Below, piece after piece: positions 10,905 to 20,556 of a stretch of 64,000 nt of DNA; the first letter of the stretch is position 1, and each line of letters begins with the position of its first letter. The stretch comes from Carboxylicivirga sediminis (GTDB lineage: Bacteria; Bacteroidota; Bacteroidia; Bacteroidales; Marinilabiliaceae). The stretch spans positions 1 to 64,000 of the forward strand of contig NZ_JAGTAR010000017.1 in assembly GCF_018156225.1 (NCBI RefSeq), read 5' to 3'. Made by a program: the position numbers and the translations under genes. The notes beneath the pieces are model-generated. The model worked only from the letters and a program-made list of their open reading frames with translations. It was not told where the DNA came from and searched no databases.

Positions 10905-13274
10905 ATGAAAGTATCATCAATAATACTTTTGCTATTTCTGCAGTTTTGTCAGTTAGTATCAACTGCTCAAACCTACAAAGGCATAGTGGCCGATGAGCAA
11001 ACCAAAGAGCCGATCGCCTTCGTTAATATTGTGTATAGTGAAGGTGCAGGAACTGTTACAGATATTGATGGTCGCTTTGAAATCAGAACCAATATAGAGG
11101 TGACTGAATTCAGAGTGAGTTGCTTAGGGTATGAACCAAAAGTCATCGATGTTAGCGAGTTTGCAAATAAAGCTACCATTTATTTACAGCCCTTAGAGTA
11201 TCATTTGCCAGCGGTTAACGTATTGCCTACAGAAAATCCTGCTGTTATTATTATGAAGCAGGTGGTGAAAAACAGGTATCGGCATAATCCGGATAATTAC
11301 GATCCATTTAGCTGCATTATTTATCACAAAATGACCCTCGATTTTGAATGGCCGTCTAACTTAAGTTTAGAAGAAAGAGCTGAGTTAAGGGACTCGCTGG
11401 GTTTGATAAATGATAGTTTCCTTTTTCTTTTCGAATCAGTTTCTGAAAAGAAGCACGTGAAGAAAGGAGTGGGAAAGGAAAAGATTTTATCGGGCCGAGT
11501 AAGTGGTTTAAAAGATCCAATATTAGCTTCATTTCCTGCCATGCTGCAGCCGTTCTCTTTTTATAATCAATATGTGAAGTTATTGGGTTATTCTTATCTC
11601 AATCCTGCATCTAAACCTGGATTGGCAGCATATCAGTTTGTATTGGAAGATACTTATACAACTGCTACTAATGATTCCATCTACTACATTTCTTACCGTC
11701 CGCGTAATGATAAAAACTTCAGAGGTTTAACTGGTGCTTTTCATATCGATGGTAGTTCATTCGCCATTAAGACGGTATCGGCCACTACTGCCGGGACCGA
11801 AAACGGAATGCGTTTGTTTATCAGGCAAAATTACCAGCCGGTTGCCAATGGTGCCTGGTACCCAAAGCAACTGGAAAGTAGTCTGGAGCTGGGAGGAATG
11901 GGCGCATTGCGAAAACTACCATTCCCGCTGGTTGGCAAAGGCAAGAGTTATGTGACGGCTATTAATACGCAGCCTCAATTTTCGGCCAAAGAATTTGATA
12001 ATGTAGTGATGGAAGATTTGAATATTGCTGATGATGCCCCAGATATCGCACATTTTCGTTATGAGCCATTGACGGCAAGGGATTCATTAACCTATCAATA
12101 CCTCGATAGTATTGGCAGAAAAAATCACCTGGATGCAATACTCAAAACCCAAATTTCTCTGGTGAAAGGTTACGTGCCAATGGGGAAGCTACAGCTGGAT
12201 GTTTCCAGGTTAATCGATTACAACGATTATGAAGGGCTAAAGCTTGGTGCAGGTCTTTATACCAGTCCTCGGCTGTCAAAGAATTTCTCTACTGGTGGCT
12301 ATTATACCTATGGCTTTGGAGATAAAGCCAGCAAATATGGACTTGAATTTACGTTGTCTCCATTTCGAAATAAAGAGAACCGCTTATATGTGAAGTATCA
12401 GGATGATGTTTATGCTACTGGTTCATTTGAATTCATTGACGGCGTAAAAGCACTATCAAGTGAGCGTTTTAGTCGGTTTTTAACAGAAACAATGGATTTG
12501 TCAAGAGGGTGGACCACCGGAGCGGAGTTTCGGTTTGTGAAATACTTTAAGGCAGGTATCTACTATAGTAATCATGAGTTGAATCCACAGCGATCGTATC
12601 GTTTTGTGGTTGATGGTAATGTGGCTCCGGCATTTGAGATGAATGAAGTTGGCCTTAAACTTAAATGGGCCAATAAAGAGACTTTTTCCAATTCTCCGTT
12701 GGGTAAAATATCTAATGGAACAAACTGGCCCGTTGTTTGGTTAAATGCTTCAGCAGGCAGATGGGCGAGTGATAGTCAATATGAGTACACCCGCTTGGAG
12801 TCAAGGGTGCATAAGCGCTTTAACTATCCCAACTCCATGTATACGGTTTTACGATTCGAGGGTGGCTATATGTCTGGCGATTACCCAAGTACGTTACTAT
12901 ATAGTGCTTTAGGTAGCTATAAGTCATTTACAGTATTGGTACCTTATACTTTTGGCACAATGCGTTTAAATGAGTTTGGAGCCAATCGGTTTACTGCCAT
13001 GTATTTTAGTCATGGTTTTCCCTTGGGACTCAATACAAATAATCGTATCAAGCCCGAGATTGTTGTAAGTACCAATGTGGCTTTTGGGGACGCGCCTGTA
13101 GGGATTTCAACTATCAATAAAGGCTACTACGAATCGGGTTTATACCTGAAAAATCTCTTTTCAAATTTTATCTTCCAGTATGGTTTATCTGTACATTACC
13201 GTTATGGAACTTACAGGTTGCCGGAAGCGATTGATAACTGGGCATTTAAATTGGGGCTTGAATTTGCCTTCTAA
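10905..13274 (+). CDS. DUF5686 / carboxypeptidase-regulatory-domain outer-membrane protein
   Basis: 789 residues. A signal peptide (1-21, ending STAQ) is followed by a CarboxypepD_reg-like beta-sandwich (about 23-100, with TYKGIVADEQTKEPIAF and a GTVTDIDG turn), then a long beta-rich region matching the DUF5686 type, ending in a C-terminal aromatic residue (LGLEFAF) typical of outer-membrane barrels. It is likely an outer-membrane protein of unknown role, widespread in Bacteroidota. It is monocistronic and converges with the next gene: the two stop regions overlap by 4 bases with no terminator hairpin between them. Location is inferred from the signal peptide and the C-terminal pattern. Confidence 0.8.
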   Translation: MKVSSIILLLFLQFCQLVSTAQTYKGIVADEQTKEPIAFVNIVYSEGAGTVTDIDGRFEIRTNIEVTEFRVSCLGYEPKVIDVSEFANKATIYLQPLEYHLPAVNVLPTENPAVIIMKQVVKNRYRHNPDNYDPFSCIIYHKMTLDFEWPSNLSLEERAELRDSLGLINDSFLFLFESVSEKKHVKKGVGKEKILSGRVSGLKDPILASFPAMLQPFSFYNQYVKLLGYSYLNPASKPGLAAYQFVLEDTYTTATNDSIYYISYRPRNDKNFRGLTGAFHIDGSSFAIKTVSATTAGTENGMRLFIRQNYQPVANGAWYPKQLESSLELGGMGALRKLPFPLVGKGKSYVTAINTQPQFSAKEFDNVVMEDLNIADDAPDIAHFRYEPLTARDSLTYQYLDSIGRKNHLDAILKTQISLVKGYVPMGKLQLDVSRLIDYNDYEGLKLGAGLYTSPRLSKNFSTGGYYTYGFGDKASKYGLEFTLSPFRNKENRLYVKYQDDVYATGSFEFIDGVKALSSERFSRFLTETMDLSRGWTTGAEFRFVKYFKAGIYYSNHELNPQRSYRFVVDGNVAPAFEMNEVGLKLKWANKETFSNSPLGKISNGTNWPVVWLNASAGRWASDSQYEYTRLESRVHKRFNYPNSMYTVLRFEGGYMSGDYPSTLLYSALGSYKSFTVLVPYTFGTMRLNEFGANRFTAMYFSHGFPLGLNTNNRIKPEIVVSTNVAFGDAPVGISTINKGYYESGLYLKNLFSNFIFQYGLSVHYRYGTYRLPEAIDNWAFKLGLEFAF

Positions 13275-14101
13275 ATTAAAGAAGCTGCCATTGTTATCAG
13301 TAACCAGAGAATAGGGAGCCCTTCTATATAAAAGTTGATGAATGCAGCTGATGGGCCCACAGCTACTTTTCTTATAAATAGTATTCCCAAAGTCAAAAAG
13401 AGGGTATTACCAATGATGATATTTACAGTGTTGTTTGATATAGTCAATAATATCAAACTAACTAAAATACACCCAATGGAAAGCCAGGTGGCCACATTGG
13501 TGCCTGTGAGTTGAGGAATTGTTTTTAAAGCTTTGGGGTCAGTTGCAATATCTCGTATGTCAAACGGGATGGTGAGGCCAATAATGAAAAGCCATGTTGC
13601 CAATATGGCTACGGCATTAAACTCAATTGATTGCTGGAGTGGAAGCGTAGCTAATAAGGTCCAACAGCTGGCAATAACTAAAATTTTTAGACCTGGAATC
13701 CAGCGTAATCCTATGTTTTTTCGGCTTGGGATGATGTAAAGTACAGAGGTAATAACAAAAAGCAATATGTTATTCTGATAACCTGATTCCAGATGCAAAA
13801 ATACATACCCACTAATTAATGCTGCAACTAATGTGATAGTGATAATGAGGGTTTTGTGTTTATATAGCCATTGTAGTCGTGACGCTTTTAATTTATACGG
13901 GCTGACAATAAAAACAGCAAGATACATATAGTTATAACCCGCCAATGCCGCGCAAAAATTGAATATTACAATAAGAAGGTTGTCAATTTGGGTATGAATA
14001 TTTAGTACCTTTGTTAAAGATGCTACTGAAAGTGCTACCCATATATTTGAATAAACCAGAAGATTCCGAACATTTCGGAAGAGTGCTTTTTTTACAATCA
14101 T
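13271..14101 (-). CDS. UbiA-like polytopic membrane protein
   Basis: 276 residues with about eight hydrophobic segments. The second half holds PFDIRDIATD, which matches the second Asp-rich motif of UbiA-type prenyltransferases (DxxxD). The first motif, normally NDxxDxxxD, is not recognisable: the equivalent place reads GYNYMYLAVF. It may be a diverged prenyltransferase acting on a quinone or heme precursor, or a non-catalytic relative. The ATG begins immediately after the stop of the Crp/Fnr gene, so the two are almost certainly co-transcribed. Activity is uncertain. Confidence 0.6.
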   Translation of the reverse strand: MIVKKALFRNVRNLLVYSNIWVALSVASLTKVLNIHTQIDNLLIVIFNFCAALAGYNYMYLAVFIVSPYKLKASRLQWLYKHKTLIITITLVAALISGYVFLHLESGYQNNILLFVITSVLYIIPSRKNIGLRWIPGLKILVIASCWTLLATLPLQQSIEFNAVAILATWLFIIGLTIPFDIRDIATDPKALKTIPQLTGTNVATWLSIGCILVSLILLTISNNTVNIIIGNTLFLTLGILFIRKVAVGPSAAFINFYIEGLPILWLLITMAASLI

Positions 14102-14800
14102 TTAACCAACCCGACTGATGTTTTCGAGGGTTTTGGGGGAGTTAATTTCAATTTGATTACCATTAATCGAAATAATGCCACTTTCTTTAAAATCTTTCAG
14201 CACTCTAATTAAGCTTTCTTTTGACACGCTTGAAAGATCTGCAATGTCTTGCCTACTTAGCGTTGTATAGAAATTGCGGGAGTGATAGATTTTTTCAGAA
14301 AGGTACAGGATCGTATTGGCAATTCTGCCTGTCATTTTTTTGTGCGAAAAATTAATGAGTTGGTGGTATAAGTCTGTCGTAATCTGATGATTTAGTTTTA
14401 GTATTTGTTCCGCGAAGCAAATGTTGTTCCTAAAGGCATTGGTAAAAGCTTCAACGCTAATAAGGCAAGTGTCCATTTCAGTCAGGGCACTTACCGAAAA
14501 GTGGTTCAGGTTATCGGTAAAAAGTCCCGGACTAACAATGAAATCTCCCTCTTTAAGTACTTTTATGATGATATTTTTATTCTCTAGTCCTTTGATAAAA
14601 AGTTTGGCATACCCCTTTTTGATGCAAATGATATTATTGCATCGGGTGCCTTCCTTAATTATAGTTTCACCCTTTTGGTAAACGACCTTACAGTGAGATT
14701 CCTTGAACGCATTTAGCTCATCTTCATTAAGCGTTTCAAAGCCATTGAATTTGATATTGCACTTGCTACATCCGGTAATGTCACTCATTGTTTTTGTCAT
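14102..14800 (-). CDS. Crp/Fnr-family transcriptional regulator
   Basis: 232 residues: cyclic-nucleotide-binding-like sensor fold (about 25-145), dimer helix, and a C-terminal Crp-type winged helix (about 155-225). The recognition helix reads VSKESLIRVLKDF. It keeps the Glu and Arg that contact the TTGA/TGTGA half-site in FNR and CRP, while the FNR Ser is replaced by Ile. The N-terminus has Cys11-x2-Cys14 and further Cys at 37, 54 and 59, a spread that could carry an iron-sulfur cluster or other redox sensor, but it does not match the E. coli FNR spacing. It is divergent from the cytochrome cluster and most likely controls it. Ligand and sensing mode are inferred, not shown. Confidence 0.88.
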   Translation of the reverse strand: MTKTMSDITGCSKCNIKFNGFETLNEDELNAFKESHCKVVYQKGETIIKEGTRCNNIICIKKGYAKLFIKGLENKNIIIKVLKEGDFIVSPGLFTDNLNHFSVSALTEMDTCLISVEAFTNAFRNNICFAEQILKLNHQITTDLYHQLINFSHKKMTGRIANTILYLSEKIYHSRNFYTTLSRQDIADLSSVSKESLIRVLKDFKESGIISINGNQIEINSPKTLENISRVG

Positions 14801-15036: not shown

Positions 15037-15050
15037 TTGATTTATATCAA
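15037..15050 (+). promoter_or_regulatory. FNR-type operator TTGAT-N4-ATCAA
   Basis: The sequence TTGATTTATATCAA is a perfect match to the classical FNR/Anr consensus palindrome. It sits 110 bases upstream of the hexaheme cytochrome start and about 240 bases upstream of the divergent Crp/Fnr start. A weak -7-like element (TAACTTAC, 15063-15070) follows 12 bases downstream, so the box would overlap the -33 region, a position compatible with activation or repression. Confidence 0.65.
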
Positions 15051-15159: not shown

Positions 15160-16272
15160 ATGAAAAAACTAAAACAATTTATTTGGCTTGTAGTAATGGC
15201 ATTAGCTGTTGTATTCGCTAGCTGTACAAAAGAAGGTCCTCAAGGCCCTCCGGGATCAGACGGTACCAATGGGACTGATGGAATCAATGGTGTTGATGGC
15301 ACTGCAGGATGTATTACCTGTCACACTAACGATAGTGAATTGGCCATTAAGTCGGCTCAATTTGCACATTCAACACATTTCATAGGTGGTCAGGAGCATG
15401 TTGGCTATGGAGGAAGAAGTTCTTGTTCAATGTGTCACTCACATAATGGCTTCTTAACTGCAGTTACTGATGGTACAAACTCAGGGGGTGAGCATCCTGA
15501 AGCTGCATCTATGTCATGTTACACTTGTCACCAGATTCACACAAGTTATACTCGTGATGATTATGGATTACATTACACTGATGCTGTAGATTTTTACTTG
15601 AATGAAAATGATAATGGTGTATTTGCAGGATTAGAAGTGGATGCAACCAATCAATACAGTGATCCTGATGGATTAAGCAATACTTGTATTAAATGTCACC
15701 AACCTCGCCACAGGGGAACAAGTCAGCCAGATCCTAGTGTTGAAGGCTCAATTGAAATTTCAGCAGGTTCTGCTGCTCACTGGGGACCTCACTATGGCGC
15801 TCAAGGTGCTATATTCGGTGGTGTAGGTGGATACATTGGTACAGATAACCCAACTGCTCCTTCAGGCACAAAAGGACATCATAGTTGTAAGAGTTGTCAC
15901 ATGTCGTTCAATGCTTTAACAGGCAATTACGGGGAGTATGTTGGTGGTCACTCATTCAAAATGACCGATGCAGATGGCTTACCAGTGTTTACTGCTTGTG
16001 ATGAGTGTCATACAGATAGAGGTGCTACTATTGACCTGCCAGGTAAAATGGCTGCAAATAAGATTTTATTAGATGCACTTCATGCAGATTTAATGGCTGC
16101 CGGTATTGCTGATGCAGATGGTCACTTAGTTGGAGGTACATGGACAAATCAGCAACTTGCTGCCTACTGGAATTTTGCACTTGTTAAGAATGATCATAGC
16201 TATGGTATCCATAATGAGGAATATACTCAGAGTTTGATTAATGCTGCAAGAACTTATTTAGGAACGAATTAG
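15160..16272 (+). CDS. Hexaheme c-type cytochrome lipoprotein with collagen-like stalk
   Basis: 370 residues. The signal peptide ends in a lipobox with Cys22 (FASC). Eight collagen-type Gly-X-Y triplets follow (26-49), then six CxxCH heme-binding motifs at 51-55, 89-93, 120-124, 176-180, 243-247 and 280-284, with many extra His residues available as distal ligands. It is probably an outer-membrane or surface electron-transfer protein held away from the membrane by the Gly-rich stalk. It heads the cytochrome cluster downstream of an FNR-type box. A hairpin follows directly after the stop. I do not recognise a named family such as OmcA or MtrC; redox partner and acceptor are unknown. Confidence 0.88.
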   Translation: MKKLKQFIWLVVMALAVVFASCTKEGPQGPPGSDGTNGTDGINGVDGTAGCITCHTNDSELAIKSAQFAHSTHFIGGQEHVGYGGRSSCSMCHSHNGFLTAVTDGTNSGGEHPEAASMSCYTCHQIHTSYTRDDYGLHYTDAVDFYLNENDNGVFAGLEVDATNQYSDPDGLSNTCIKCHQPRHRGTSQPDPSVEGSIEISAGSAAHWGPHYGAQGAIFGGVGGYIGTDNPTAPSGTKGHHSCKSCHMSFNALTGNYGEYVGGHSFKMTDADGLPVFTACDECHTDRGATIDLPGKMAANKILLDALHADLMAAGIADADGHLVGGTWTNQQLAAYWNFALVKNDHSYGIHNEEYTQSLINAARTYLGTN

Positions 16273-16281
16273 TAAATTCAT

Positions 16282-16320
16282 TGGATGGCTATCGTATGTG
16301 ATAGCCATCCAGTCTTTTGT
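16282..16320 (+). terminator. Hairpin between first and second cytochrome genes
   Basis: A perfect 12-bp stem (16282-16293 with 16300-16311) has a 6-nt loop and is followed by a T-rich stretch. It lies 10 bases after the hexaheme stop and 30 bases before the next gene. It may act as a partial terminator or mRNA stabiliser that sets a high ratio of the first product. Confidence 0.7.
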
Positions 16321-16341
16321 TTAACTAACTAAATAGGTCAT

Positions 16342-16722
16342 ATGAAAGCATTACAAGTATTATTTGTTTCTATATTATTCCTTTCGGTGCTGGGTGCTGG
16401 GTGTGATTATAAATTTATCAAGCCTGACACAGGTGATCCGGTAGATCCTGAAGAGCCAATCAGTTTTTCTGAGCAGGTAGAGCCAATATGGACAACACAG
16501 AGTTGTACTAACTGTCATAACGGAAGTGTTACATTTAGTTTAGAACCAGGTAAAGCCTATCAATCGCTGACGAGTTTAAATCTTATGGATTTAGACAATG
16601 CGCCAAATAGTTTAATTGTTAAGGTACCTGGTACTAGTGCTCCGCACACTAACTATAACTATGTTGGTAATCAGAAAACGCTAATTATCACCTGGATTGA
16701 GCAAGGTGCAGAGGATAACTAA
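16342..16722 (+). CDS. Monoheme c-type cytochrome lipoprotein
   Basis: 126 residues. The signal peptide carries a lipobox with Cys21 (GAGCDY), and a short Pro/Asp/Glu-rich linker follows. There is one CxxCH motif at 55-59 (CTNCH) in a context, EQVEPIWTTQSCTNCHNGS, typical of small cytochrome-like domains found in planctomycete and Bacteroidota lipoproteins. It ends with a WIEQGAEDN tail. It is likely a membrane-anchored periplasmic or surface electron carrier. It sits 69 bases after the hexaheme gene and 12 bases before the beta-barrel gene, in the same operon. The sixth heme ligand is not identified. Confidence 0.85.
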   Translation: MKALQVLFVSILFLSVLGAGCDYKFIKPDTGDPVDPEEPISFSEQVEPIWTTQSCTNCHNGSVTFSLEPGKAYQSLTSLNLMDLDNAPNSLIVKVPGTSAPHTNYNYVGNQKTLIITWIEQGAEDN

Positions 16723-16734
16723 AAAACGATTACA

Positions 16735-17613
16735 ATGAAAAAAATAGTATATCTGATTGTTTTGGTGTTGTTATCTGGTCACTTTGTAATGGCTCAGGAA
16801 GAAGCACCAGTTGAAAAAAAAGTAGATAAGCCGGTTAGAGCGCCATGGGAGTCTGGGACTCTGGTAAATCACCAGACCAGTATTACTCAGTATAAAAATA
16901 CATTGGAAATGGTGATTAGTCACCGTTTTGGACCTGTAGAAAATGGTATTAGTGATGTATTTGGTATTATGGCGCCGGGTGCAAACATCCGGATTGGCTT
17001 TAATTATTCGATTTTAGATAATTTAAGTGTAGGTTTTGGAACGAACAGCCAGAAAAAGTATCAGGATTTTCAGGCCAAATACACCCCATTTCAGCAGACA
17101 CGTGAAAATACCATTCCGGTGAGTTTAACGCTATATGGTAATGCTGCCATAGATGGTAGAGAAGACGCTGCTTTTGGCGTAGATTATGCCTTTTCCGATA
17201 GATTATCATACTTTTCAGAGGTGATAGTAGGTCGTAAGGTTAATGATTGGTTGTCGGTTCAGGCAAGTGCCAACTTTACTCATTACAATTCGGTAGATAG
17301 TTTGCTGGATAATGATAAGATTGGGCTTGGTTTCGGTGGACGTATTAAGTTTAGTCCTCAATCGTCATTGACTTTAGAGTTGGGTGTTCCACTTAAGATT
17401 GAAAGCATTTCGCAACACACATCTTTTACCAACCACTCAAAACCACATTTCTCAATCGGTTATGAGGTATCAACGAGTACACACGCTTTTCAAATATTTG
17501 TGACAAACGGATTAGGTATCTTGGCACAAGAGTTGTATATGTATAATACAAATGAGTTTGATAGCAAGAGCATTCGCTTTGGTTTTAATATAACGCGATT
17601 GTGGAATTTCTAG
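16735..17613 (+). CDS. DUF5777-type outer-membrane beta-barrel protein
   Basis: 292 residues. A cleavable signal peptide (1-20, ending VMAQ) precedes a stretch of alternating polar and hydrophobic residues with repeated aromatic girdles, and a C-terminal aromatic residue (FNITRLWNF). The segment SHRFGPVENGISDVFGI and the spacing of strands resemble the DUF5777 family of Bacteroidota barrels, which are often found beside cytochromes and YceI-type proteins. In this operon it could be the porin component that lets a cytochrome cross the outer membrane, or a barrel for a soluble electron acceptor. The role is inferred from neighbours only. Confidence 0.75.
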   Translation: MKKIVYLIVLVLLSGHFVMAQEEAPVEKKVDKPVRAPWESGTLVNHQTSITQYKNTLEMVISHRFGPVENGISDVFGIMAPGANIRIGFNYSILDNLSVGFGTNSQKKYQDFQAKYTPFQQTRENTIPVSLTLYGNAAIDGREDAAFGVDYAFSDRLSYFSEVIVGRKVNDWLSVQASANFTHYNSVDSLLDNDKIGLGFGGRIKFSPQSSLTLELGVPLKIESISQHTSFTNHSKPHFSIGYEVSTSTHAFQIFVTNGLGILAQELYMYNTNEFDSKSIRFGFNITRLWNF

Positions 17614-17635
17614 ATAATTATTAAAAACTAATAGT

Positions 17636-18049
17636 ATGAAAAAGTTGAAGATGTCTATGATGGTTAGCTGTGCATTAGTAATGCTAAGCTTTGTGTTAAT
17701 GTCTTTTGTGCAGGAAAAGAAACCTTGGGATGTGCCAGCCAAATATCAGAGCATGACAAACCCTCAGGCTGCTGATGATGCTGAGATGATAAAAATTGGT
17801 AAGATGAATTATGCACGTCATTGTAAATCGTGCCATGGAAATATTGGAAAAGGTGATGGTCCGAAAGCAAGGAGTATTGATGCAGATTTAGGAGACTTTA
17901 CTTCAGCTGAATTTCAGGCTCAAAAAGATGGCGTGATTTATTATCAGTCTTTTATTGGTCGTGATGATATGCCAAATTTCGAAAAGAAAATTGTTGATGA
18001 AGAAGATCGATGGGCAATCGTTACGTATTTACGTACGCTTAAAAAATAA
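17636..18049 (+). CDS. Soluble class I monoheme cytochrome c
   Basis: 137 residues. An N-terminal hydrophobic segment (about 8-25, signal peptide or anchor) is followed by a class I cytochrome c domain: CKSCH at 63-67, GKGDGPKA after it, the expected axial Met in GRDDMPNFE and the C-terminal helix WAIVTYLRTL. It is a periplasmic electron shuttle. In this operon it is well placed to carry electrons between the inner-membrane heptaheme/cytochrome b module and the outer-membrane components. A hairpin terminator follows, so the next genes may have their own promoter or depend on read-through. Confidence 0.92.
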   Translation: MKKLKMSMMVSCALVMLSFVLMSFVQEKKPWDVPAKYQSMTNPQAADDAEMIKIGKMNYARHCKSCHGNIGKGDGPKARSIDADLGDFTSAEFQAQKDGVIYYQSFIGRDDMPNFEKKIVDEEDRWAIVTYLRTLKK

Positions 18050-18067
18050 ATAAATCACCATTATTAC

Positions 18068-18116
18068 AAACTGCCCGCGCAAGAGGTATTTACCTTTTAT
18101 GCTGGCAGTTTTTTGT
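18068..18116 (+). terminator. Hairpin after monoheme cytochrome c
   Basis: An 8-bp outer stem (18068-18075 with 18104-18111) encloses a short inner GGT/ACC hairpin and is followed by a T run. It divides the cytochrome cluster into an outer-membrane half and an inner-membrane half. Confidence 0.65.
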
Positions 18117-18140
18117 TTTATCCAATAGTATTCAGATACA

Positions 18141-19082
18141 ATGGTTCAAAAGTTAAAAATAATCCCGATTTACCTGCTGGTTCTTTTGTTTGGTCATCAG
18201 ATATGGGCAAATGGAGTAGCTGACAATTCGCAATGTTTAAAGTGTCATGGTCAGGTGTTTTATGAATACCACAATGAGTGGACCGATCAAACTGATCGGA
18301 AACCTCTTAATCCATTTCACCATATTGATAGTACAAAACTGCACACCTCAGTTCATAAGATGTTTGCATGTGTTGATTGTCACTCAATGGAGTATGAGAC
18401 ATTTCCACATAGTGGCGAATTAAGACTGGAAGAGAAGTATCAGTGTATGGATTGTCATGGAGGTGATGAAACCTTTGCTAAATTTAACTTTGAAGGTATT
18501 GAGGCTGCTTTTATGGAAAGCGTCCACTATAAAGCTTCTGATGAGCGCTTTAATTGCTGGATGTGTCATGATGCACACGGATATGAATTAGCATTAAGAG
18601 AAGATAAGCCAATAACTGAGGTTGTAGCATTGAGTAATAATATGTGCTTAAGCTGTCATGATAACAAGTTTAAGTACGGTCTGTTATCTGATGATGAACC
18701 ACAGGATATTGCAAGTATTCATTCGTGGTTGCCAAATCAGAGCAGGCACTTTACAAAAGTGAGGTGTATTGATTGTCATACCAAGGTACAGTCAGACCTG
18801 CTCATTTCCCATAATATATTACCAAAAGAGGAAGCAGTGCATAATTGCGTGGAGTGTCACAGTTCTAATTCAGTATTAATGGAATCACTTTATGCACACC
18901 GGGCTAAAGAAAGTAGAGCTGAATCTGGCTTCTTTAACGCAGTGGTGTTGAATGAGGGGTATATTATTGGTGCCAATAGAAACAGAACATTAAACTTTGT
19001 TAGCATTGCCTTGTTTGGCATGTTGGTGTTAGGATTATTGGTGCATGCCACCTTACGTTTCATCGTTTCAAAAAAGAAGTAG
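18141..19082 (+). CDS. Heptaheme c-type cytochrome with C-terminal membrane anchor
   Basis: 313 residues: signal peptide (1-24), seven CxxCH motifs with first Cys at 32, 77, 102, 139, 169, 209 and 236, and one C-terminal membrane segment (about 285-307) ended by a short Lys-rich tail. Many spare His residues (for example 68, 72, 90, 129, 194, 203, 224) could be distal ligands, as in NapC/NrfH-like and tetraheme c3-type relatives. The next gene, one base downstream, encodes a cytochrome b561. Together they look like a quinol-oxidising b/c pair that passes electrons into the periplasm. No catalytic heme (CxxCK) is seen, so it is probably not an NrfA-type nitrite reductase. Confidence 0.87.
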   Translation: MVQKLKIIPIYLLVLLFGHQIWANGVADNSQCLKCHGQVFYEYHNEWTDQTDRKPLNPFHHIDSTKLHTSVHKMFACVDCHSMEYETFPHSGELRLEEKYQCMDCHGGDETFAKFNFEGIEAAFMESVHYKASDERFNCWMCHDAHGYELALREDKPITEVVALSNNMCLSCHDNKFKYGLLSDDEPQDIASIHSWLPNQSRHFTKVRCIDCHTKVQSDLLISHNILPKEEAVHNCVECHSSNSVLMESLYAHRAKESRAESGFFNAVVLNEGYIIGANRNRTLNFVSIALFGMLVLGLLVHATLRFIVSKKK

Positions 19083-19083
19083 T

Positions 19084-19701
19084 ATGAGTGATAAACTTTA
19101 TTTATATCCAGTTTGGATTAGAATTTGGCACGCAGTTAATGCCTTATGCTTTCTAGTTTTATTAATCTCCGGTATTAGTATGCAGTATTCTAACCCAGCA
19201 TACCCATTATTACCATTTGATGTAGCAGTGTCTAGTCATAATATGTCGGGAATTATAATATTCCTAGCCTACTTATTCTTTCTAGTGGCTTTTGCTTTTA
19301 CTTCCAATAAAAAGCACTATAAACTTAGATTTAAGGGCTTGACTGAAAGACTTGTTAAGCAGATTAGGTATTATACATTTGGCGTTTTTAAGGGTGAAAG
19401 TTCACCTTATCCTACAACGGAAGACGCAAAATTTAATCCATTGCAGCAAGTAACCTATGTTGGGGTTATTTTTGTACTGTACCCAATTTTAATTGTTACA
19501 GGTTTAGCTCTGATGTTTCCAGAGGCCATTATTGATAATTTCTTTGGGATAGGAGGCACTTTGTTAACAGCACTACTTCATGCCAGTGCTGGGTTTTTAG
19601 CCAGTTTATTCTTGGTGATTCATTTGTATTTTGCTACTATGGGTGCTTCTGTTAGTGCCAATTTTAAGAGTATTGTTAACGGTTATCACGAATCTCATTG
19701 A
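19084..19701 (+). CDS. Cytochrome b561-type membrane subunit
   Basis: 205 residues, starting at the ATG one base after the previous stop (a longer in-frame start would overlap that gene). Four membrane segments carry His16, His52, His156 and His170, the arrangement expected for two b hemes in the PF01292 family (hydrogenase, formate dehydrogenase or thiosulfate-reductase cytochrome b subunits). It should exchange electrons with menaquinol in the inner membrane. Adjacent genes encode the heptaheme cytochrome c and a ResB-like protein, pointing to a quinol-to-periplasm electron path and not a classical molybdoenzyme subunit, since no such enzyme is present. Confidence 0.85.
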   Translation: MSDKLYLYPVWIRIWHAVNALCFLVLLISGISMQYSNPAYPLLPFDVAVSSHNMSGIIIFLAYLFFLVAFAFTSNKKHYKLRFKGLTERLVKQIRYYTFGVFKGESSPYPTTEDAKFNPLQQVTYVGVIFVLYPILIVTGLALMFPEAIIDNFFGIGGTLLTALLHASAGFLASLFLVIHLYFATMGASVSANFKSIVNGYHESH

Positions 19702-19704
19702 TCT

Positions 19705-20556
19705 ATGGATGATTTATCGATTAAAAGAGGGTACCTGCCTGGTATCCTCATTTCTTTTGGTTTACTATTAATTGGTTATTTTTTAAATCCAGTTTTATCG
19801 ACATTGGGGATTGCACAACTTGTGTGGCCGCAAAATCTTTATTTTATATTGCTTGTTGCCGCTATAGGGCTGGCTGTAGGAATTATCTCCGATTCAGAAA
19901 AAGTTAAGTTTATTGGGAGTAAAGAAATCTTATTGCCCATTTGTATCGTGGCTGTTTTTCTTGGAATTCAGATTCTAATCAGGCCCGATGGATTTGAGGT
20001 TTCTTTTGTAAATCGCTTACGGGCTGTGCCAGCCATGCTTCTTGCTATATGCGCATTTTTTGCCGGAGGTGTTTTCATAGGGTTAAACAGTCGCCAGTTT
20101 AAAGCTAAATGGTCATCACTCCTTATTGTAATTGCTACCCTCGTATTTGTATTTTCAACAGTTGTAGGGCAGCATGATTATTATAACCTGTCTATGCGCA
20201 CTGGTGCTGATAGGGCGCTGTTTGAGGCAGAAGCTGAAAGTGGTAAATTCTACCGCTTGCCTTTTGCTGTTAAGTTGCTAGGAAATGAAGGTGTTGACGA
20301 AAGCGTGATAAGTGAATCTGGTGAGATTAAGGTTCGCTTTTTCGATACTGTTAGTGAATATACTGATGTTGTAATGGGAACTGATGATGTTTATAATCTG
20401 AAAGGTTGGGTGGTAAAAAGAATTAATACACCTGTTATTAGCGAAGATTCGGCTGAATTAATAGATTTAAGTCTGGTGTTTGATCGCTGGGTTGAGTTAA
20501 AATACATTAGTCTTGGATTATTATTGCTTAGTCTGGGGTTAAAGATTAAATTTTAG
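19705..20556 (+). CDS. ResB-like membrane protein of the cytochrome cluster
   Basis: 283 residues. Five predicted membrane segments (about 12-30, 43-60, 74-93, 106-126, 137-154) precede an extracytoplasmic domain of about 100 residues starting QHDYYNLSMRTG and containing FYRLPFAVKLL, then one last C-terminal hydrophobic segment. The LPF-type motif and layout recall the ResB half of system II cytochrome c maturation proteins (CcsBA), but the ResC/CcsA heme-handling part with its WWD motif is absent. It starts 3 bases after the cytochrome b stop. It may help heme attachment to the cluster's cytochromes or be a structural subunit. Assignment is tentative. Confidence 0.55.
   Translation: MDDLSIKRGYLPGILISFGLLLIGYFLNPVLSTLGIAQLVWPQNLYFILLVAAIGLAVGIISDSEKVKFIGSKEILLPICIVAVFLGIQILIRPDGFEVSFVNRLRAVPAMLLAICAFFAGGVFIGLNSRQFKAKWSSLLIVIATLVFVFSTVVGQHDYYNLSMRTGADRALFEAEAESGKFYRLPFAVKLLGNEGVDESVISESGEIKVRFFDTVSEYTDVVMGTDDVYNLKGWVVKRINTPVISEDSAELIDLSLVFDRWVELKYISLGLLLLSLGLKIKF

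Follow-up and report, generated by a model that had tools for sequence, protein, structure and literature searches.

Seven consecutive genes in a 64,000-nucleotide stretch of Carboxylicivirga sediminis DNA (the window) encode a set of cytochromes together with a predicted beta-barrel protein and a further membrane protein; they are lettered A to G in their order, with R for the divergent regulator gene beside them (Table 1). We propose, at about even chances, that the cluster is an FNR-controlled module of anaerobic respiration, in which electrons run from menaquinol through F and E, D, and B and C to A and end on an extracellular acceptor. F, with two b hemes, would oxidize menaquinol at the inner membrane and pass the electrons into the seven c hemes of E; the periplasm would be crossed partly on D, and the electrons would then be taken up by B, placed at the outer membrane next to C with its predicted 12 strands. 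The chain would end on A, a hexaheme reductase of OcwA type borne by a flexible GXX stalk. A would most probably face the outside of the cell and could have Fe(III) oxides, metal chelates or further extracellular acceptors as its substrates. It would be an exchangeable, acceptor-specific head and B-C-(D)-E-F a fixed trunk. The direction of flow, the location of A, the acceptor and the passage across the outer membrane are the parts that we infer. An earlier note on this DNA had proposed a chain from menaquinol to the surface or to an outer-membrane acceptor, with porin-cytochrome complexes as the known parallel. The chain reading is sound: the conserved quinol-oxidase architecture of E/F with outer-membrane-type lipoproteins and a barrel, the FNR-type box and regulator, and an iron-oxide-reducing carrier of the genes all speak for it. 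The porin-cytochrome sheath of Mtr type is not supported.

All seven open reading frames (ORFs) lie on the + strand between 15160 and 20556 with operon spacing, and the total of 15 CxxCH motifs given by the earlier note was recovered (A, six; B, one; C, none; D, one; E, seven). The order of the genes is conserved far beyond chance. The best 80 of 332 relatives in an alignment scan of genome contigs with E were used as named loci; their titles are all Bacteroidota, some no more precise, and they are termed Bacteroidales loci here. Because the loci were selected for their similarity to E, the counts apply to the closest relatives of E. An E-ORF filter was passed by 77 of the 80 (L101, L107 and L118 were excluded), and 59 loci with more than 3.5 kb upstream and 2.5 kb downstream were usable. 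A search for the gene order, which the earlier note had suggested, found the core B-C-E-F together in 58/59 usable loci, with C upstream of E in 58, B before C in 58 and F after E in all 59; in the exception, L098, C and B are in the locus but separate from E. D stands between C and E in 39/59 loci, A is somewhere in the locus in 53/59 and directly upstream of B in 39/59, and a CRP-type regulator of the family of R is present in 51/59. Of 295 genomes sampled from the order, 67 contain E (E ≤ 1e-40); hexaheme A has matches in 21 of the 60 relatives examined for it, and DUF5777, the family of C, is present in 115 of 296 genomes sampled over the whole phylum. The nearest named relative by E is Carboxylicivirga mesophila (98% identity, in a scan from which the very closest records may be missing).

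F is a four-His b561 protein, as had been claimed (Ni_hydr_CYTB/b561 Pfam match, E 6.3e-24). Its conserved histidines H16, H52, H166 and H180 are kept in more than 95% of 79 sequences and fit two b hemes. The best NCBIfam model is thiosulfate reductase cytochrome b (4e-52, under the cut-off). The ORF list begins F at 19045; we place the start at ATG 19084 because the length of 205 aa, found in 10 of 16 relatives, fits it. The tail anchor proposed for E corresponds to one C-terminal hydrophobic stretch followed by charged residues, as read from the alignment. H302 and R306 of E are invariant in 19 sequences, its best solved-structure match is 28pb (6.4e-7), and Pfam places C7/c3-type cytochrome domains on both A and E. 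D matches class I cytochrome c in Pfam (E 1.2e-10), in agreement with the earlier note. The Geobacter protein CbcA has seven hemes. The combination of a b-type subunit and a membrane multiheme c cytochrome in F/E recalls CbcBA and CbcL of Geobacter, a likeness of architecture only. For CbcBA and CbcL an inner-membrane quinol oxidase function is described (PMC12307469), and in Zoogloea a b-type and seven-heme pair lies beside MtrB/PioB and a decaheme cytochrome (PMC8258643).

The exact palindrome TTGATNNNNATCAA occurs once in the window, between R and A. Among 46 named loci with the divergent regulator arrangement, the exact box is present in 14 (0.03 expected from dinucleotide shuffles) and the box within one mismatch in 34 (1.8 expected), leaving 12 without. 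Another count gave 52 of 64 loci (2.7 expected from simple shuffles), with some genomes counted twice; since the loci are related, none of these counts are independent. R relatives keep C11 (55/57), C14 (54/57) and C112 (55/57), and a fourth Cys is present in 39/57; these cysteines resemble those of E. coli FNR. The divergent FNR-like regulator may act through this box, and the cluster is probably oxygen-regulated.

Sequence profiles and fold place A in the OcwA/OmhA/NrfA superfamily as a divergent member, the similarity extending over the heme region of its C-terminal part and the helices. It has the fold and the C-terminal D-x-S...HN helix in common with OcwA of Thermincola (6i5b) and with the undecaheme S-layer cytochrome of Carboxydothermus (6qvm), which we take to be OmhA. 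A His-His motif of 6qvm is also found in A. Its H211 is kept in 51/51 sequences; the second position is His in 36/51 and Tyr in the window, with candidate ligands read from the alignment, in which the 6qvm position lies inside the printed part and the OcwA position outside it. Five conserved candidate distal histidines were counted for the six hemes, one of them within an OcwA-like His-His/Tyr motif. OcwA and 6qvm have nine or 11 hemes; A has six by its sequence, is lipidated next to a GXX stretch and belongs to a Gram-negative envelope. A is not NrfA proper: it has six CxxCH and no CxxCK motif counted, in contrast to NrfA and the octaheme nitrite reductases, and no PF02335 match at E 0.1. If the A hemes are mapped onto hemes 4-9 of OcwA, one of them having His-Met ligation (M248, 50/51), the counts fit; we do not claim this mapping, because it is drawn only from the alignment and because nitrite reductases have CHM too. 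The earlier note had found no terminal reductase of a known type. It was right that neither NrfA nor a molybdoenzyme is among the seven genes; the cluster does, however, contain a candidate terminal reductase, since A belongs to this superfamily, and on sequence grounds A is the natural candidate for that role. The single PF02335 match of the genome, on contig C41, and one molybdopterin-family match both lie outside the contig of the cluster. On C41 (L158, 3435-6909) the NrfA match is accompanied by a four-heme NrfH-like gene and followed by a 427-aa possible outer-membrane protein.

In a group made up of the window and 11 close loci, called the Carboxylicivirga group here (two are titled Marinilabiliaceae only, and others Saccharicrinis or Bacteroidales metagenome-assembled genomes (MAGs)), mean pairwise identity was 60% for A, 58% for B, 81% for C, 78% for D, 74% for E, 71% for F and 39% for G. 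Loci L081 and L083 are 84-86% identical in the core and only 38% in A. A tree built from C, E and F of 59 loci keeps the group intact with support 1.0; in the A tree the node that unites the group takes in all 59 leaves, and L083 is placed with two Marinifilum loci (support 0.97). These comparisons indicate that A is exchangeable between loci. In Geobacter, outer-surface cytochromes are reported to change fastest and quinol oxidases slowest (PMC12977616).

The lipoprotein claim for A and B held on a loose pattern, a lipobox-like Cys being present in 55/61 A and 75/79 B relatives. Of the 55 A proteins with this Cys, 48 have K at +3, 47 have E at +4 and 48 have G at +5; the optimal Capnocytophaga export signal is C-X-K-(D/E)2-X (PMC5080379). 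GXX repeats follow in 59/61 A proteins, and B lacks such an export motif. These features lean, tentatively, towards A outside and B inside, and the favoured reading is that A may be exposed on the cell surface.

C matches the DUF5777 profile PF19089 (E 9.4e-73; 244.9 bits versus a cut-off of 23.1), as had been noted. Its model has 12 strands (mean pLDDT 88), and the lumen of the monomer is estimated at about 10-13 Å, versus about 36 Å for 26 strands; for this estimate, shear numbers were assumed and 11 Å was allowed for side chains. By strand number and lumen estimate an Mtr-like sheath is rejected for the monomer, whose predicted barrel is too narrow for a cytochrome, and DUF5777 as a porin-cytochrome barrel of Mtr type is not supported. 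In the model, monomeric C cannot carry electrons across the outer membrane by holding a cytochrome in its lumen. MtrCAB likewise combines an outer-membrane barrel with a multiheme lipoprotein, but its barrel has 26 strands and the seven genes include no counterpart of the decaheme MtrA. Cyc2 ties a single-heme cytochrome to a small barrel, as B and C may do. In Cyc2 the two are in one chain with 16 predicted strands (PMC8406198), whereas B and C are separate genes with a lipidated cytochrome and 12 strands. No heme-barrel precedent was among the listed structure matches of C, which proves nothing. A second DUF5777 gene is paired with a D-like cytochrome on contig C53 of the same genome (L003, 8257-11268), followed by an apparent chemotaxis receptor with CxxCH in its sensory part.

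The pair B-C is not confined to the cluster. From the 115 genomes with DUF5777 we took 20 comparison loci (L053-L072), one per family from 20 families. In 19/20 of them YceI is no more than 1.5 kb away from C, and 17/20 have a B-like monoheme protein no more than 2.5 kb away from it; ORFs with at least two CxxCH were found in 0/20, and YceI was absent from the 100 cluster loci searched (11 of them second copies). The trio of YceI, monoheme lipoprotein and DUF5777 in these other families thus shares C and a B-like protein, with YceI in place of D-E-F-A and a Met motif in the B-like protein; L054 also has a tRNA_anti-like protein. In 18 B-like comparison proteins, picked by their C-terminal motif, the distal-ligand stretch always has Met (14 Met only, four also His). 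Of 79 Bacteroidales B proteins, 60 have His only, eight both, eight Met only and three do not fit. From these motifs we infer a change of the distal ligand of B from Met to His in most Bacteroidales. A change from His/Met to His/His usually lowers heme potential, so a His/His B heme is in line with a menaquinol-fed chain. B itself has a sub-threshold Pfam match only, and two loci (L047, 5868-6260; L040, 3851-4279) have a B heme motif with longer spacing (CxxxxCH or similar) instead of CxxCH. In the 20 C proteins from other families of the phylum, H63, R86, D111, K115, R203 and H250 are each the most frequent residue at their position (70-100%); other positions differ, R156 being kept in 65% and Y134 not being kept. 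A tentative and rather unlikely reading of these data is that B-C takes electrons across the outer membrane in a third way, distinct from both MtrCAB and Cyc2, with a narrow barrel that holds no heme and a monoheme lipoprotein as a protein of its own. The pair, common throughout Bacteroidota, would work elsewhere with YceI and a higher-potential His/Met heme and would have been rewired in Bacteroidales to a menaquinol oxidase, a lower-potential His/His heme and interchangeable OcwA-like heads for the respiration of extracellular acceptors. The YceI members would then probably be aerobic, and YceI might be a lipid or quinone-like carrier.

The link to iron reduction comes from Labilibaculum filiforme 59.16B (L150), which carries R, B, C, D, E and F, with A about 6.6 kb further and a box with two mismatches only. 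This strain reduces Fe(III) oxides, but neither Mn(IV) oxides nor nitrate, nitrite or sulfate; L. manganireducens reduces Mn(IV) oxides (PMC5760507). For the Fe(III) reduction the authors suggested a predicted ferric reductase or a cytochrome annotated NrfHA (PMC5760507), and a later study, which returns to this suggestion, describes putative Fe/Mn reductase genes as highly transcribed (PMC9765461). Elsewhere in L. filiforme a hexaheme gene stands beside a large ferredoxin-like gene, which by its layout we name alternative complex III. At L176 1191-5251, a cytochrome b-like gene, a Rieske-like gene and an octaheme-TPR gene follow one another in an unusual arrangement of bc type.

Several points weigh against a surface-ending chain. 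The link between cluster and iron phenotype in L. filiforme is circumstantial, because its genome has other multiheme genes, Mn(IV) oxides are not reduced and only 2-3% of its electrons go to Fe(III) oxides (PMC5760507). The crossing of the outer membrane is left unexplained by so narrow a barrel. A is not directly upstream in 20/59 loci, six of which have no A in the stretch covered. The full Bacteroidota export signal was not found on A, only half of it (K at +3, E/D at +4), with Gly at +5 in most of the 55. The rate of change is no proof of surface location, because B evolves as fast as A. Finally, OcwA also reduces nitrite and hydroxylamine (PMC6703420).

A possible but less probable account has A facing the periplasm, as a reductase served by C as its porin: a soluble acceptor of small size (N-oxide, sulfur oxyanion or metal chelate) would enter through C, and no electrons would cross the outer membrane. 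C is not specific to the cluster, however, as its shared residues and its place beside YceI in other families show, and the comparison loci have no multiheme ORF. The NrfA match lies elsewhere in the genome, and A is swapped and fast-evolving, as has been reported for surface cytochromes of Geobacter (PMC12977616). Alternatively the genes might serve detoxification or redox poise, disposing of surplus fermentation electrons or removing NO, nitrite or hydroxylamine without energy coupling. The few percent of Labilibaculum electrons that reach iron oxides (PMC5760507) and the weak nitrite and some hydroxylamine activity of OcwA (PMC6703420) would suit this function, but the quinol-oxidase-like E/F is the most constant part of the cluster, an argument that holds for F only since the loci were chosen by E; we regard this function as quite unlikely. 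Least probable is electron uptake, in which an extracellular donor would be oxidized into the quinone pool by the same chain running inward. CbcBA has been proposed to run in reverse in Seep-SRB2 (PMC10553843), but the Labilibaculum carriers are described as iron-reducing fermenters (PMC5760507) and A resembles reductases.

Table 1. Regulator, box and cluster genes in the window
Feature	Position	Strand	Description
R	14102..14800	-	CRP/FNR-family regulator, divergent from operon
FNR-type box	15037..15050		Exact palindrome TTGATTTATATCAA, 109 bases 5' of gene A
A	15160..16272	+	Lipoprotein with six hemes and a collagen-like GXX stretch; candidate terminal reductase from the OcwA/OmhA/NrfA superfamily; apparently swappable module
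B	16342..16722	+	Lipoprotein with a single c heme, probably His/His; constantly paired with C
C	16735..17613	+	DUF5777; predicted 12-stranded outer-membrane beta-barrel
D	17636..18049	+	Class I monoheme cytochrome c; probable periplasmic shuttle
E	18141..19082	+	Heptaheme c cytochrome with C-terminal hydrophobic tail
F	19084..19701	+	Cytochrome b561-type subunit; probable diheme quinol oxidase
G	19705..20556	+	Fast-evolving membrane protein, not detectably ResB

G, present in 15 of the 80 named loci, had been called ResB-like. This did not hold up: neither G nor three homologues matched PF05140, the matches of the genome to that family belong to an ORF on contig C100, and hhalign gave the G family a probability of 0.2% against that ORF. 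Another membrane protein, a multi-pass one (13271-14101) between DUF5686 and R, has no Pfam match and evolves very fast (mean identity 34% in nine). No tRNA or Rfam family reached threshold in the 64-kb window. Among the usable loci, 22/59 have a six-heme protein of 480-530 aa (the one tested, from L086, is NapC/NirT-like) and 7/59 a protein with at least 14 hemes. Proteins of at least 14, mostly 19, hemes lie beside the cluster in L037 (14366-17167), L094, L096, L099, L105, L117, L127 and L141; the one tested, from L037, also matches b561, a larger CbcL-like layout.

No paper naming the cluster was among the matches listed in literature searches, subscription papers being outside their scope, and the extracts of PMC7399161 and PMC8368055 contain nothing on such genes. 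A bioanode MAG, Bacteroidetes_1, has a seven-gene cluster of six multiheme cytochromes and one beta-barrel, with hypothetical matches only, for which electron transfer to the anode was proposed (PMC8258643). Set beside the present cluster by description only, it likewise joins Bacteroidetes cytochromes to one beta-barrel; six of its seven genes are multiheme.

Fe(III) reduction by fermentative marine Bacteroidota has been reported without a known mechanism (PMC5760507), and the cluster is a specific, testable candidate for it. DUF5777, a name in no paper of the literature searched (again with subscription papers outside scope), gains a first functional context, and E/F may be a marker for such respiration in sediment genomes.

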